Below the pieces are notes generated by a model. The model was not told where the DNA came from. It made no database searches and saw only the letters and a list, made by a program, of their open reading frames with translations. A stretch of DNA of 64,000 nucleotides from positions 744,001-808,000 of the forward strand of contig NZ_CP007129.1 in NCBI RefSeq assembly GCF_000522985.1. Direction: 5' to 3'. Of this stretch, positions 3,134 through 57,353 are shown piece after piece (positions within the stretch are counted from its first letter, which is position 1; each line of letters opens with the position of its first letter). Position numbers and translations under genes: made by a program. Origin of the DNA: Gemmatirosa kalamazoonensis (GTDB lineage: Bacteria > Gemmatimonadota > Gemmatimonadetes > Gemmatimonadales > Gemmatimonadaceae).

Positions 3134-4199
3134 GGCTGCACCCCGCCCGCCGCGCGGACCGCGTGCGCGGTGCGCGCGAGATCCACGAGCACCGTCTCCA
3201 TCTGCTGCCAGTACGCGGTGGAGTCCATCGACGCGCGGCGGCGGCGCAGGTCGGCCACCTGCAGCTCGAGCGCGCGGCGCTTCGCGACGAGCGGCCCGAC
3301 GCGCGGGTCGGCCGACGCGGGGACGCCGCCCAGCACGAGCGACGCCGCCAGCCGCCCGTCCGGCGCGTCGACCGACGGCGTCGTGGACGCGTTGCCGTCG
3401 CCGTCGTCGTCGAGCTGCGCGTGCTCGGTCTGCAGCCGGTTCTCCACCTCGTACGAGCGCGCGGTCTCGCGCTGCGCGTACGTGAACGCCTCGAGCAGCG
3501 ACACACCGCCGTCCTTGTCGAGGTCCGCGGCGCCGGTCGCGAGCGCGGCGGCGAAGTAGCGCGCGAAGCGGGTCGCGTTGCGCTCGCCCGCGGCCTTCGT
3601 CGCGGTGACGATCGCGCGGTTCGGGCCGGCGAGCGCCTTCGCGAAGTCGGCGCTCGCGCTCGACGCGTCGACGAACGCGACCGACTGCTGGCGGAACGGC
3701 GCGAGCAGCCGCGCGAAGTCGGCGGCGGTCATGTCGGGGCCCGGCAGGTTGAAGCGCGGCGCGTCGCCCTCGGAGCTGCCGTGGCCGACGAGCACGACCC
3801 ACACCTGGTCGCCGGGCGCGACGCGCGCGGCGAGATCGGTGAACGCGCGCTCCACGTTCTCGCGCGTCGAGCGCGCCGCGATGCGCCCGCGCGCGCGCGC
3901 GTCGTGTCCTCGGCCAGCCACACGACCTCCGCGGCGGGGACGCCGTAGCGCGTGCGCGCCGCGCTGTCGATCTGCGCCGCGGCGCGATGGAACGCGTCGG
4001 CGTACTGCGGCTCACCCGACGCGCCGACGACGATCACGACATGCGCGGTGCCGGGACCCGGGACTCGGGACTCGGGACTCGTGCGCTGACCGCCCACGAG
4101 TCCCGAGTCCCGAGTCCCGAGTCCCGGTCGCTGAGCATGCGCCACGGCCACGACCGACGTCGCGGCGAGCACGCCCAACCATGTTAGGCGCCCTCTCAC
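3130..4199 (-). pseudogene. Caspase-fold (C13/C14-like) exported protein, frameshifted
   Basis: Two leftward frames together give one protein. The N-terminal frame starts at GTG 4199 (overlapping the preceding TGA) with a signal peptide (RLTWLGVLAATSVVAVAHA) and strand HVVIVVGASG. It continues to WLAEDTTRAR near 3900, where the reading must switch by one base to RIAARSTRENVERAF and the conserved VVLVGHGSSEGD block. The switch coincides with a CG dinucleotide run at about 3886-3900. The usual catalytic Cys after the second core strand is absent (FVDASSASADF), so even an intact protein would probably be a pseudo-peptidase. A calcium-loop-like DLDKDGGVSLLE is present near the middle. The heptamer-repeat hairpin at 4052-4127 is translated within the N-terminal linker. 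The frame break may be a base-calling error or a real mutation. Confidence 0.7.
4052..4127. repeat. GGGACTC heptamer repeat hairpin (family A)
   Basis: Tandem copies of GGGACTC on the left arm (about 4052-4080) are followed by CGAGTCC copies on the right arm (4097-4127), forming a long inverted repeat with a short GC-rich loop. The same unit recurs at 21639-21721, so it is a dispersed element. Here it lies inside the coding frame of the caspase-like gene, adding a low-complexity linker after the signal peptide. Confidence 0.85.
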
Positions 4200-15230: not shown

Positions 15231-15421
15231 GGCGGCGCTGGAACGGCGGCGCTGGAACGGCGGCGCTGGAACGGCGGCGCTGGAACGGCGGCGCTGGTAA
15301 CGCGCGGTATCAGTGCCGTTCCAGCGCCGCCGCACCAGCGCCGAGGTATCAGCGCCGCCGCACCAGCGCCGCGGTATCAGCGCCGCCCCACCAGCGCCGA
15401 GGTATCAGCGCCGCCCCACCA
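15229..15421. repeat. GGCGCTGGAAC / GGTATCAGCGCC repeat cluster (family B)
   Basis: Five tandem copies of a 14-base unit containing GGCGGCGCTGGAAC (15231-15295) are followed by inverted, diverged units alternating GCACCAGCGCCG and GGTATCAGCGCC to 15421. The arms can form long hairpins. The same vocabulary recurs at 27400-27523. It separates two convergent genes. Confidence 0.88.
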
Positions 15422-15424
15422 GAA

Positions 15425-17881: not shown

Positions 17882-18010
17882 CTCCACGTACGAGTTTCTG
17901 CAGGACTGAAGAGGGACTGAAGGAGGACTGAAGAACGACCAACGACAACTTGTTCGTTGTTTGGTCCTCCTTCAGTCCTTCTTCAGTCCCACGAGCACAC
18001 GTACGTGGAG
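17882..18010. repeat. Long imperfect inverted repeat with GGACTGAAG direct repeats
   Basis: CTCCACGTACGAG at the left end pairs with CACACGTACGTGGAG at the right end. Inside, three GGACTGAAG-like units face CTTCAGTCC units, and the centre is CGACAACTTGTTCGTTG. The whole 129 bases can fold into one extended hairpin. It lies between two leftward genes, upstream of the hydrolase at 17793. Confidence 0.85.
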
Positions 18011-21729: not shown

Positions 21730-22197
21730 CTAGAAGTCGTCGTCGTCGCTGCGACCGCCGCGGCCGCCGCCGCCCCAGTCGCCGCCGCCGCTGCGCTCGC
21801 GCCGGCCGCCGCCTTCACCGCCGCGGCCGCCCCCACCGCCGCCGCCATAGCCGCCGCCGCCCCCGCCGCCGCCGTAGCCGCCCCCGCCGCCGCTGCCGCC
21901 GTAGCCGCCGCCACGTCCGCCGCGGCCACCACCACCGCCGCCGGCGCCACCGCCACCGCCGGCGCCACCACCGGCGCTCGGAGTGCCGCCGCCGAGGCGG
22001 ACGACGTTCTCAGCCTGCGGACCCTTCTGCCCCTGGCCGACCTCGAACTCCACGCGCTCGCCTTCGTCGAGCGACTTGAAGCCCGAACCCTGGATCGCCG
22101 AGAAGTGCACGAAGCAATCCTTGCCGCCGTCGTCCGGCGCGATGAACCCGTATCCTTTCTCTGCGTTGAACCACTTCACCGTTCCGGTCGTGCGCAT
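21730..22197 (-). CDS. Cold-shock-domain protein with long glycine/RGG-rich tail
   Basis: 155 residues. Residues 1-68 form a complete cold-shock domain with RNP1-like [10 protein letters not shown] and RNP2-like CFVHFSAI. From about residue 72 the chain is almost pure Gly with Arg and Tyr ([13 protein letters not shown]-type) and ends in an acidic DDDDF. Bacterial CspA is normally about 70 residues. RGG/YGG tails occur on eukaryotic and cyanobacterial RNA-binding proteins and promote RNA binding or condensation; that role is inference here. The tail DNA is a GGC/CCG-rich simple sequence prone to length change. Confidence 0.93.
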
Positions 22198-27399: not shown

Positions 27400-27523
27400 A
27401 GCGGCGCTGATACCTCGGCGCTGATCGTGCGGCTCTGATACGGCGGCGCCGATACCACGCCTTATCAGCGCCGCGGTTCCAGCGCCGAAGTTACAGCGCC
27501 GCCGTATCAGCGCCGCCCCACCC
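27400..27523. repeat. GGCGCTGATAC / GTATCAGCGCC repeat cluster (family B)
   Basis: GCGGCGCTGATACC, CGGCGCTGATCG, CGGCTCTGATAC and CGGCGCCGATACC on the left face TTATCAGCGCCG, GTTCCAGCGCCG, GTTACAGCGCCG and GTATCAGCGCCG on the right. Second occurrence of the family seen at 15229-15421, here between two leftward genes. Confidence 0.87.
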
Positions 27524-53830: not shown

Positions 53831-53959
53831 TCGTGAGCCCGTCGCGAGGTATGATCCGGGCCCATAGGTAACGGAACATTGTCGGGTGATGGGTGACGCT
53901 CGCCAGCCTATGGGCACCGGCCGGGACGGAGGCGCCCATGCCGTGGAGCGATCACCCCG

Positions 53960-54231
53960 ATGGACGCGCGGCTGCGCTGCATCGCCGACGGGCGCGGCGG
54001 GGCGGCGCGACTGATTCACGACGGGGCATACGAGTGGATCGTCGTCGACCGACGACTGCTTGCGCGCCTCGTCCGGCGCGCCTCGTCCGGCCCGCCTCGG
54101 CGACACTCGCGTTCGCGATCGAGTTCGTGGTGCCGGACGTCGCGGCGTGGGACGTGCGCCTGACGATCGCGCGAGAGCTGCGCCGCGTGCTCGGGTCCCG
54201 AGCGGCGTCCGCGTTACGAATGGACGCTTGA
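53960..54231 (+). pseudogene. Small gene disrupted by a 14-bp tandem duplication
   Basis: From ATG 53960 the frame reads MDARLRCIADGRGGAARLI, then WIVVDRRLLARLVR and goes out of frame. The 14-base unit CGCGCCTCGTCCGG occurs twice in tandem (54063-54076, 54077-54090). Removing one copy restores a continuous 85-residue frame that continues PASATLAFAIEFVVPDVAAW to RVLGSRAASALRMDA and stops at 54231. No family recognised. The duplication could be reversible by slippage or recombination. It ends inside the marR promoter. Confidence 0.75.
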
Positions 54232-54256
54232 CATTACTCGTTATCACAACTATCCT
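54228..54256 (+). promoter_or_regulatory. marR promoter with embedded operator
   Basis: TTGACA (54228-54233), exactly 17 bases, then TATCCT (54251-54256): a near-consensus sigma-70 promoter. The spacer holds TCGTTATCACAAC, the same word as at 54781, 58200 and 58281. A repressor bound there would block RNA polymerase, so MarR autoregulation is likely. Confidence 0.8.
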
Positions 54257-54303
54257 TATAAGGGAATCAGACAGGTCGCGATCACGAACCTGGGAGCCGA
54301 GCC

Positions 54304-54747
54304 ATGCCGAAACGTCGATTCGAGACGCCGCCGTTGCTGGCGTTCGACCTGCTCCTGCGGACGGCGCTCGAGCTCGACCTGCAGCTCGGTCAGGCGCTCC
54401 GGCCGGCCGAGGTCACGCCGGCGCAGTACAACGTGCTCCGCATCCTGCGCGACGCGGGGCGGCAGGGCACGGCGTGCAGCGAGATCGCCGAGCGCCTCGT
54501 GCGCCCCGACCCGGACGTGACGCGGCTGCTCGATCGGCTCGAGGCGCGGGGGTTCGTCACCCGCGCGCGGGACACCGAGGACCGCCGCGTGGTGCTCGCC
54601 CGGATCACGCCCGAGGGGCTCGCCGTGCTCGACAAGCACGGCGCCGCGATCGCCGCGCTCCACGCGGAGCAGTTCAGCCGGCTCGACGCGGACGAGTTCG
54701 ATACGCTCGGCGCGCTCCTCGAGAAGCTGCACGGCGGGGATCGCTGA
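54304..54747 (+). CDS. MarR-family transcriptional regulator
   Basis: 147 residues with the winged helix-turn-helix: TPAQYNVLRILRDAG, ACSEIAERLVRPDPDVTRLLDRLEARGFVTR (recognition helix), and the wing DTEDRRVVLARITPEGLAVL. GGGAG precedes ATG 54304. Its binding word recurs upstream of itself, of the next unit at 54818 and at 58.2 kb. Probable sensor of a small ligand or oxidant; the ligand is unknown. Confidence 0.92.
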   Translation: MPKRRFETPPLLAFDLLLRTALELDLQLGQALRPAEVTPAQYNVLRILRDAGRQGTACSEIAERLVRPDPDVTRLLDRLEARGFVTRARDTEDRRVVLARITPEGLAVLDKHGAAIAALHAEQFSRLDADEFDTLGALLEKLHGGDR

Positions 54748-54780
54748 TCCCACATGTATTCGGCGCGCCGTCCCATTTAT

Positions 54781-54793
54781 TCGTTATCACGAC
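54781..54793 (+). promoter_or_regulatory. Second MarR-type operator
   Basis: TCGTTATCACGAC, part of the palindrome GTCGT-N4-ACGAC, lies 34 bases after the marR stop and just before AAGGAGGG and ATG 54818. It is followed by AAACCCTACAAGG, alignable with TATCCTTATAAGG of the marR promoter, so a second promoter probably serves the downstream genes. Confidence 0.7.
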
Positions 54794-54817
54794 AAACCCT
54801 ACAAGGAGGGATAGCCG

Positions 54818-55147
54818 ATGTCAGCCATCCACGCCACGCACCACGCGCACGCGCCTGACGGTCCCCGCTTCTCGGCGAGCGACCGGCCGCTGCCGCCGAC
54901 CGAGTCCCGTACCACGTGGAGAGCCCGGGCATGGCTATGGGGGTCGATCGTCGTGGTCTACGCGCTCGCGGCGCTCGCCATCGTGGCGCCCACGATGACG
55001 CTCGCCCTGCTGTTGGGCGCCGCCGTCGCCGGCGCCGTGATCTGGATCATGTTCCGACTGCTCGACCGACGGGTGAAGTCGCTCGGTGCGGAGCCGTCCC
55101 GCGCGCGCCATGCCTGGCCCCATCGCGCCACGCGGAGGGACGCATGA
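54818..55147 (+). CDS. Small membrane protein, MarR-controlled
   Basis: 109 residues. A polar, His-rich N-terminus (MSAIHATHHAHAPDG) is followed by two helices (about 42-60 and 63-80) and a basic tail. No family recognised. AAGGAGGG is 8 bases upstream of the ATG. Its TGA overlaps the ATG of the baeRF-like gene. Confidence 0.7.
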   Translation: MSAIHATHHAHAPDGPRFSASDRPLPPTESRTTWRARAWLWGSIVVVYALAALAIVAPTMTLALLLGAAVAGAVIWIMFRLLDRRVKSLGAEPSRARHAWPHRATRRDA

Positions 55148-56300: not shown

Positions 56301-57353
56301 ATGCACGAACACCACGGCACCACGATCGCCCGGACGCCGTCGCGACTCCCGACACCGCCGCCACTCGCCCTCGATCTCAGTCACGCGGGACGACCAGTCG
56401 GCTGGGTGCGCGGCGACACGATCGGCTTCCGTGGCTTCGCGAGCAACGTGGAGGCGGCGCACGCCGCGTGGGTCGCATACCGCGCCGTCGCGCTGCGGCT
56501 CGCCAAGACCGACGGCCGCCGGCCGATTCCCGTCGACATCGGGCGCCTAACGCTGAGCGCCGGCGACGACGGCGACGACGGCGACGACCGCACCGTCGTC
56601 ATGGCCAGCGGTCAGCCGATCGCGACGCTGCTGCCGCCCGACCCCGGGAGCCGTAGCGGTGACTCGTTCGGCTTCGAGCTCCGCGTCCCCGCGCCGACGT
56701 ACGAGACGAGGATGCGCGCGATGGCGTATCTCGCGCACCGCGCGCTCCGGAAGTCGGGGGTCCGCTGGGCCCTCTGGGCGCGCGACGGTCAGCCGAGAGA
56801 GCGCCGCGGCGATGCGGTCCCGGCAGAGGCCATCACGTCACCTCGTCCGCCCCGCGCGGAGGCTCGTAGCGCGCGGCGCGCCGTGGACCGGGGCTTCGCC
56901 CTGCTCTGTCTCGCCCTCGTCGTCTCTGTCGCGCTCATCGTGCCTCGCAATGCGGTGCTCCCGCTCGGCGCCATGGTGCTCGCGGCGCTGGTGCTCGTCG
57001 GCGCGATCGAGCTGCCGCGCCGCTGGTGGGTGCGTCGCGTGCGTGCCGCCGAAGCGCGCGCGGGACTCGTCACCGTCGACCACGCCACCGCCACGCGGCG
57101 CGCGCCGGCAGCCGAACCGCAGACGCGAGGCGGTGCGCTGCGGCGGCCAGTGGCGGTCGCGGTGACCGTGACGGCGAGCGTCGCGGCGCTGCTGCTCGCG
57201 TTGGTGATGCCGGATCACCTTGCAGGCCCGGTGGGCGTGCTGGGACTGACGGGTCTCCTCGCCAGCCGGCTGTTGGCTCCGCGGCCTGGGATCCACGAGC
57301 GGGAGGAGATCGAAGCCCGACGAGAGCCTGACGAGGGCCTAACGAGAGCCTAA
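56301..57353 (+). CDS. Hypothetical membrane protein, 350 residues
   Basis: Residues 1-195 are soluble, with repeated WAL/RALRKSG segments and a DDGDDGDD acidic run. Residues 200-245 and 295-335 give about four helices (FALLCLALVVSVALIV, LPLGAMVLAALVLVGAIEL, VAVTVTASVAALLLALV, LLGLTGLLASRLL-type). No family recognised. Same direction and close after the baeRF-like gene. Its end holds two tandem GCCTAAC words, one giving the TAA stop. Confidence 0.6.
   Translation: MHEHHGTTIARTPSRLPTPPPLALDLSHAGRPVGWVRGDTIGFRGFASNVEAAHAAWVAYRAVALRLAKTDGRRPIPVDIGRLTLSAGDDGDDGDDRTVVMASGQPIATLLPPDPGSRSGDSFGFELRVPAPTYETRMRAMAYLAHRALRKSGVRWALWARDGQPRERRGDAVPAEAITSPRPPRAEARSARRAVDRGFALLCLALVVSVALIVPRNAVLPLGAMVLAALVLVGAIELPRRWWVRRVRAAEARAGLVTVDHATATRRAPAAEPQTRGGALRRPVAVAVTVTASVAALLLALVMPDHLAGPVGVLGLTGLLASRLLAPRPGIHEREEIEARREPDEGLTRA

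Follow-up and report, generated by a model that had tools for sequence, protein, structure and literature searches.

The window considered here, that is, the whole stretch of 64,000 nucleotides that was analysed, belongs to contig C3, which has 1,106,233 bases; the genome totals 7,479,215 bases in four contigs, among them also C2 (5,311,527 bases) and C4 (1,040,503 bases). The genus Gemmatirosa is placed within the Gemmatimonadaceae, and the strain, Gemmatirosa kalamazoonensis KBS708, is a soil bacterium with replicons of 5,312, 1,106, 1,041 and 21 kb (PMC3974934). The locus under study and its parts are located on the forward strand, as are marR and the frame at 56301-57353. The locus lies immediately upstream of an intact gene for a MarR-family regulator of 147 amino acids (54304-54747; Pfam PF01047, 54.7 bits), which is 77% and 75% identical to its matches in the genomes G066 and G033, respectively. 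The marR promoter (54228-54256) comprises a TTGACA element (54228-54233), a spacer of 17 bases and a TATCCT element (54251-54256), and similar stretches are found 5' of marR at three further loci (L091, L092 and L093). Upstream of this promoter lie a decayed left end of an IS481-family insertion sequence (53860-53991) and two pieces of an old gene, one in frame 2 (54002-54091) and one in frame 1 (54070-54210, with its stop codon at 54229-54231), which meet at a 14-bp tandem duplication. Further downstream (56301-57353) lies an intact gene for a protein of 350 amino acids that is a more distant member of the old gene's protein family. The stop codon of the gene remnant overlaps the -35 element TTGACA, so the initial annotation was right in ending its proposed gene immediately before the marR promoter.

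The duplication consists of two perfect head-to-tail copies of CGCGCCTCGTCCGG (54063-54076 and 54077-54090), which are identical at 14/14 positions, and the period-14 match extends from 54062 to 54091. Directly after the perfect pair follows a degenerate copy, CCCGCCTCGGCGAC (54091-54104), which agrees with the unit at 8 of the first 9 and at 9 of all 14 positions, and which accounts for the 2.7 copies assigned by TRF to 54062-54099. The segments on either side of the duplication are in different frames, namely frame 2 and frame 1. At present, translation in frame 2 from 53960 ends at a stop at 54163 (67 amino acids). Frame 1 contains no stop ahead of 54229-54231 when read from 53938 (97 codons) or from 53893 (112 codons). 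On the exact tandem repeat at 54063-54090 and the out-of-frame segments that flank it, and also in the arithmetic of its 85 codons (the 272 bases of 53960-54231, minus 14, leave 258, or 86 codons including the stop), the initial annotation was accurate. It had further proposed that the duplication broke a gene, that removing one copy restores a clean gene of 85 codons, and that the repeat could be a recent, possibly reversible on/off switch or a fixed inactivation; these proposals fared differently, as set out below.

The coding ancestry of the region is revealed by a family profile built from five full-length relatives from the Gemmatimonadaceae, with which the 1003 stop-to-stop segments of the window of at least 20 codons were searched (hmmsearch). 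The upstream piece matches profile positions 72-101 (30.0 bits, E 2.4e-8) and the downstream piece matches positions 90-137 (14.9 bits, E 0.0011), and because the two match consecutive stretches of one profile, the duplication must have shifted a real coding frame. That both cover positions 90-101 is expected of a duplicated segment. The 350-amino-acid frame matches positions 17-132 (29.7 bits, E 3e-8; E 1.2e-6 in a whole-genome search), and the next match in the window has an E of 0.42. The upstream piece is found again in a separate whole-genome search, which returns the remnant at positions 72-100 only (E 1.3e-5). When used as queries against the proteins of the own genome, the upstream piece retrieves itself, one paralogue (E 9.9e-4) and one weak match (E 0.108), and the downstream piece retrieves itself and two matches with E 0.77 and 0.92. 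The codon-position base pattern in the own frame, over 18 codons of the upstream and 47 codons of the downstream piece, is suggestive only. At the DNA level, a search of 59 genomes (own included) identified a stretch in G025 (L007) that is 72% identical over 112 columns, spans the duplication site and sits within a frame of 160 residues. A lack of any conserved product in the repaired frame among relatives, which the initial annotation had named as evidence against its proposal, is not what was found: all five relatives in the profile have an open frame across the site. Profile positions 1-71, on the other hand, are without a match in the region, and the native start is missing as well. The gene was therefore broken by the duplication in the sense that a real coding frame was shifted, but it was also truncated at its front, and the repaired frame does not amount to a clean gene.

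What stands in place of the gene's front is the relic of an insertion sequence. Searched with an nhmmer model of five IS481-type left ends (L040, L041, L042, L043 and L046), the 64 kb yield a match at 53860-53991 (39.5 bits, E 1.5e-11); the next match in the window reaches 4.3 bits, and the highest score among 500 Markov sequences, each of 600 bases and searched on one strand, is 5.5 bits. The relic contains, besides two iteron-like copies (CCCATAGGTAAC and GTGATGGGTGAC), the beginning of the transposase gene, and the iteron part alone gives E 2e-4, the sole window match at E<=5. In the alignment with L012 and L040, the ATG at 53938-53940 (frame 1) occupies the position of the transposase start (MPW..., MPWRETCPMDERLRF), and the ATG at 53960-53962, which had been proposed as the gene start, corresponds in L012 to an internal transposase methionine (CP-M-DERLRF). 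A net loss of 2 bases between these two methionine codons, relative to L012 in the gapped alignment, indicates that the relic is itself frame-shifted. Among the three of the five source transposases tested against NCBIfam NF033577 (cut-off 224), one scored above the cut-off (L041, 234.1 bits) and two just below it (L012, 222.6 bits; L046, 219.6 bits).

No transposase body was detected by tblastn with five transposases against the window, which yielded four rows at E<=1; the best of these (E 0.038) lies inside marR on the other strand and is taken as chance. Nor was a second IS end found in the window, where the iteron-only model matches the left end alone. What remains is accordingly a one-ended relic and not an element: it resembles IS481-family insertion sequences in its left end with paired iteron-like repeats and in a transposase start like MPW...MDERLRF, and it differs from them in being reduced to about 130 frame-shifted bases of one end, with neither the catalytic core of the transposase nor the right end in the window. 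In the genome as a whole, the L012 transposase is without a match at E 1e-20, and one match to the rve_3 domain was found. The IS-end model gave one match (E 0.48) on 20 sampled stretches together with L069. With the relic as query, short matches came up in 16 records of a plasmid collection, the best with E 8e-4; none of them covers 80% of the query or lies under an annotated transposase gene. Codon-position bias is absent from 53860-53991, which is not informative here, since most of this segment would be non-coding in a living insertion sequence too.

Taken together, the region 5' of the conserved marR promoter is very probably a pseudogene with two lesions. Both are directly visible in the DNA, as profile positions 1-71 are missing and the frame changes at 54063-54090; homology to intact family members is detectable in both pieces (E 2.4e-8 and 1.1e-3), and frame and length are disrupted in comparison with these members. 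The ancestral gene would have encoded a protein of about 150 residues belonging to a small Gemmatimonadaceae family, with its end where the remnant ends today, 5' of marR. The front half, with the native start, is now gone, and the second half is fused to the decayed IS481-family left end, with the junction between about 53991 and 54002. This probably came about by insertion of the IS and subsequent loss of its remainder together with the gene's front. The frameshift caused by the 14-bp duplication would be an event separate from this IS-linked truncation, and either order is possible. The product of the remnant is probably non-functional, and its 3' end may persist owing to the abutting conserved marR promoter. 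Bacterial pseudogenes can arise by insertion-sequence truncation plus frameshift, and the locus shares with this class an intact homologue elsewhere, a missing front half, an IS relic at the break and a frameshift. It differs in that the lesions are so close together that, once one repeat copy is disregarded, they pass for one neat short gene.

Several observations weigh against this reading or concern single steps of it. The retained half contains neither a stop nor any frameshift beyond that of 14 bp, which would indicate either recent decay or remaining constraint, although weakly, because open frames are cheap in G+C-rich DNA. The score of the downstream piece on its own is modest (E 0.0011), and the kept part starts near a predicted repeat boundary, as a viable one-unit protein would. 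The IS-mediated loss is deduced from one end of the element, the match of the IS part comes from a model of five elements, and the old arrangement of the gene 5' of marR is backed by a single locus, L093.

The duplication itself would be the product of slippage. With short tandem duplications made by slipped-strand mispairing, the repeat at 54063-54090 has in common an exact head-to-tail unit that is as long as the distance between the copies of a neighbouring imperfect repeat, and it differs from them in nothing notable. The imperfect repeat that directly follows the perfect pair (offset 14, with agreement at 8 of its first 9 positions) is a likely slippage partner: the imperfect 9-bp copies CGCGCCTCG and CCCGCCTCG, spaced by 14 bp, would have mispaired, and slippage between them would have inserted one extra 14-bp unit and shifted the frame. 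If the imperfect pair predated the event, its offset accounts for the unit length of 14. In the predicted structure of the L094 protein, the duplicated segment closes strand 97-103 and the frame break adjoins the loop of residues 104-113, where the extra copy falls, ahead of strand 114-119; the extra unit would thus have been placed just 3' of the third strand of the second structural unit.

Such repeats are a general feature of the surrounding DNA. Exact tandem repeats with units of 10-40 bp occur at 8 distinct places in the window (10 rows when overlapping periods are included), compared with 16 rows altogether, or a mean of 0.8, when the whole window was simulated 20 times with a first-order Markov model. 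In a genome sample of 400,000 bases they occur at 40 places, which pool coding and intergenic DNA and hence speak for commonness rather than for how often genes are hit; the period is not divisible by three at 26 of the 40, and 11 of the 40 are arms of inverted array pairs, which the repeat at 54063-54090 is not. Agreement of at least 8/9 at offset 14 is seen at 703 of 463,517 positions (0.15%) of the sampled DNA of this genome. The repeat at 54063-54090 is above chance expectation, yet it is not unusual in this genome. An Rfam scan of the window gave 0 matches at the gathering threshold.

These results bear on the other ways in which the locus could be read. Phase-variable (contingency) loci carry intragenic repeats whose number sets the reading frame, and a reversible switch, in which gain or loss of one 14-bp unit toggles the 85-codon gene in part of the population, would share this property with them: the unit length is not divisible by three, the repeat lies inside coding sequence, both pieces derive from coding sequence, and slippage can shorten a perfect repeat. 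The window nevertheless differs from such loci in having two copies of a long unit, a truncated gene and no variation seen, the genomes compared on this question all belonging to other genera. There are just two perfect copies of the 14-mer, repeats of this kind are common in the sampled 400 kb, many of them out of phase with codons, and neither copy-number state gives an intact full-length product: the frame opened by loss of a unit starts inside the IS481 relic, without profile positions 1-71, and would be a chimera of a transposase start and half a gene. We therefore reject the switch together with the clean gene, the former being very unlikely and nothing at the locus supporting it. A truncated but working small protein would place the remnant of the insertion sequence in a constructive role, its end having given a promoter, a ribosome site and a start to the second unit of the protein, with the duplication as a recent hit or a tolerated change. 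Frame 1 indeed runs without interruption between the IS start at 53938 and 54231, GGAGG is kept in the IS end ahead of the ATG at 53938, the kept half corresponds approximately to one predicted structural unit, and the codon-position pattern is kept in both gene pieces. The frame open from 53938, however, reads the upstream piece out of its ancestral frame, and among the matches listed for 179 family genomes, in which very short genes could be missed, the only match to the second half alone is the window's own, which leaves this possibility improbable. The combined scenario of a new small protein built from IS481 signals and a single unit of a two-unit protein, with 14-bp slippage toggling its frame and with an overlap with the promoter of a MarR regulator that elsewhere is clustered with the same family, is a long shot.

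Two further explanations were weighed. That the second 14-bp copy is absent from the organism and arose in sequencing or assembly is very unlikely, given that exact 14-bp duplications are atypical of long-read indel errors and that the imperfect repeat provides a natural cause. The assembly is PacBio-only and one collapsed tandem region of 53 kb on this replicon was resolved by manual curation, but the coverage of this element was 102x and the sequence was polished with Quiver (PMC3974934). Chance open frames, with no gene ever present, would be suggested by the abundance of long frames at this G+C-rich composition, but the two pieces match the family separately, correctly ordered and in adjoining frames, the stronger match was found again in the whole-genome search, and the DNA of L007 is 72% identical over 112 columns spanning the site. 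A chance origin is thus next to inconceivable, and it was rejected on the profile matches of both pieces. As a general caution, where an exact tandem duplication seems to interrupt an otherwise clean small gene, the gene may be dead and the duplication just one of its two lesions, and a switch should be proposed only after full-length comparison with homologues. Of more lasting use than the site itself are the protein family of two predicted units, which is clustered with a MarR regulator, and the tandem-repeat-rich genome.

The family of the pseudogene is small. Where frames were read with their start, its members comprise 149-164 amino acids (L003, L007, L094 and L093), and full-length members are present in G000, G025, G015, G027 and G069. 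The 149-residue frame L003 lies on the same replicon as the window, and on this replicon the whole-genome search finds a full-length copy (positions 1-134) at G000:C3:524721-525125; at G000:C3:523893-525125 (L003, L069), two family members are adjacent, one full-length (149 amino acids) and one longer and divergent. Searches starting from the L007 and L003 frames found protein relatives in 9 of 149 genomes (own included), and the five-row profile has matches at E<=0.001 in 25 of 179 family genomes. In 9 of these 25 the best E is 2e-8 or lower, and the other 16 lie between 1.5e-5 and 6.4e-4; 14 of the latter are partial matches inside frames of 915-1306 codons and may represent chance or a different protein. 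When genome contigs were scanned with one peptide pattern, 2 of 9 candidate stretches were confirmed, which come from records titled as Gemmatimonas MAGs of Hopland soil, and the plasmid collection holds no relative of the 149-amino-acid protein at E 1e-3. Scans of both pieces and of the intact relatives tried against Pfam and NCBIfam reached no family cut-off, the only matches at E<=1, both far under the cut-off, being MmeI_N (E 0.15, L007's protein) and EIIC-GAT (E 0.089, the 350-amino-acid protein). Members of this family are located at 56301-57353 of the window, at 8738-10228 of L069, in L067 and at 3426-7643 of L093.

The protein family is predicted to consist of two units, as the model of one member (pLDDT 75.6, six-row alignment) contains two units of four strands plus a helix. 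Profile-profile comparison of the two family halves gave a weak match (probability 6.6%, E 0.0056), so the division into two units is taken from the predicted model. In fold comparisons, Foldseek returned nothing usable (best E 0.012), and the best VIA-align hit (Z 5.5, 109 aligned, rmsd 4.0) is at the tool's background level, with biotin/lipoate ligases, MscS and others near-tied.

The association of the family with marR extends beyond the window. Family members lie within a few kb of a marR relative in G066, G033, G027 and G069, and in G069 (L093) a full-length family gene is found two genes 5' of marR; G002, G028 and other genomes with a strong marR match have no family match among the 149 genomes searched or among the matches listed for the 179. 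The two closest marR relatives (L090 and L091) have other genes 5' of marR, and the 5' neighbours in G066 and G033 differ and, by the look of their sequence, resemble antiporter-type membrane genes. A promoter and operator-like sequence, TTGACA...ATAACGAYTATCC, precedes marR in L091, L092 and L093, and its inner part alone is found in L090, which keeps the ACAACGATTATCC part of the stretch without TTGACA. A further copy is located at 3180 of L093, ahead of a run of family genes that starts at 3426. This run of several family genes stands beside marR and a protein that reads as universal-stress-like. In the window, an operator-like sequence, TTAnTCGTTATCACnAC..., occurs both 5' of marR (54234-54263) and 5' of the next gene (54777-54806; gene at 54818-55147), the two being 80% identical over 30 bases. 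Similar operator-like sites 5' of marR and of family genes in relatives suggest a putative autoregulated MarR regulon.

The wider window and genome also contain inverted pairs of tandem arrays, in which each hairpin arm consists of 2-9 copies of a unit of 7-14 bases. They are located in the window at 4052-4126, 15231-15422, 17902-17989 and 27402-27517 and are likewise present in L128, L129, L130, L131, L133, L136, L138, L139, L140, L142 and L143, amounting to 23 pairs in the 464 kb examined (a raw count, uncorrected for chance). Up to rotation, a small set of array units, for example GAGCGTG, TCGGGAC, CGTGGCTG and AGGACTGAAGA, recurs at separate places. Furthermore, the window contains a run of 223 bases of degenerate CCG-type triplet repeats at 21755-21977.
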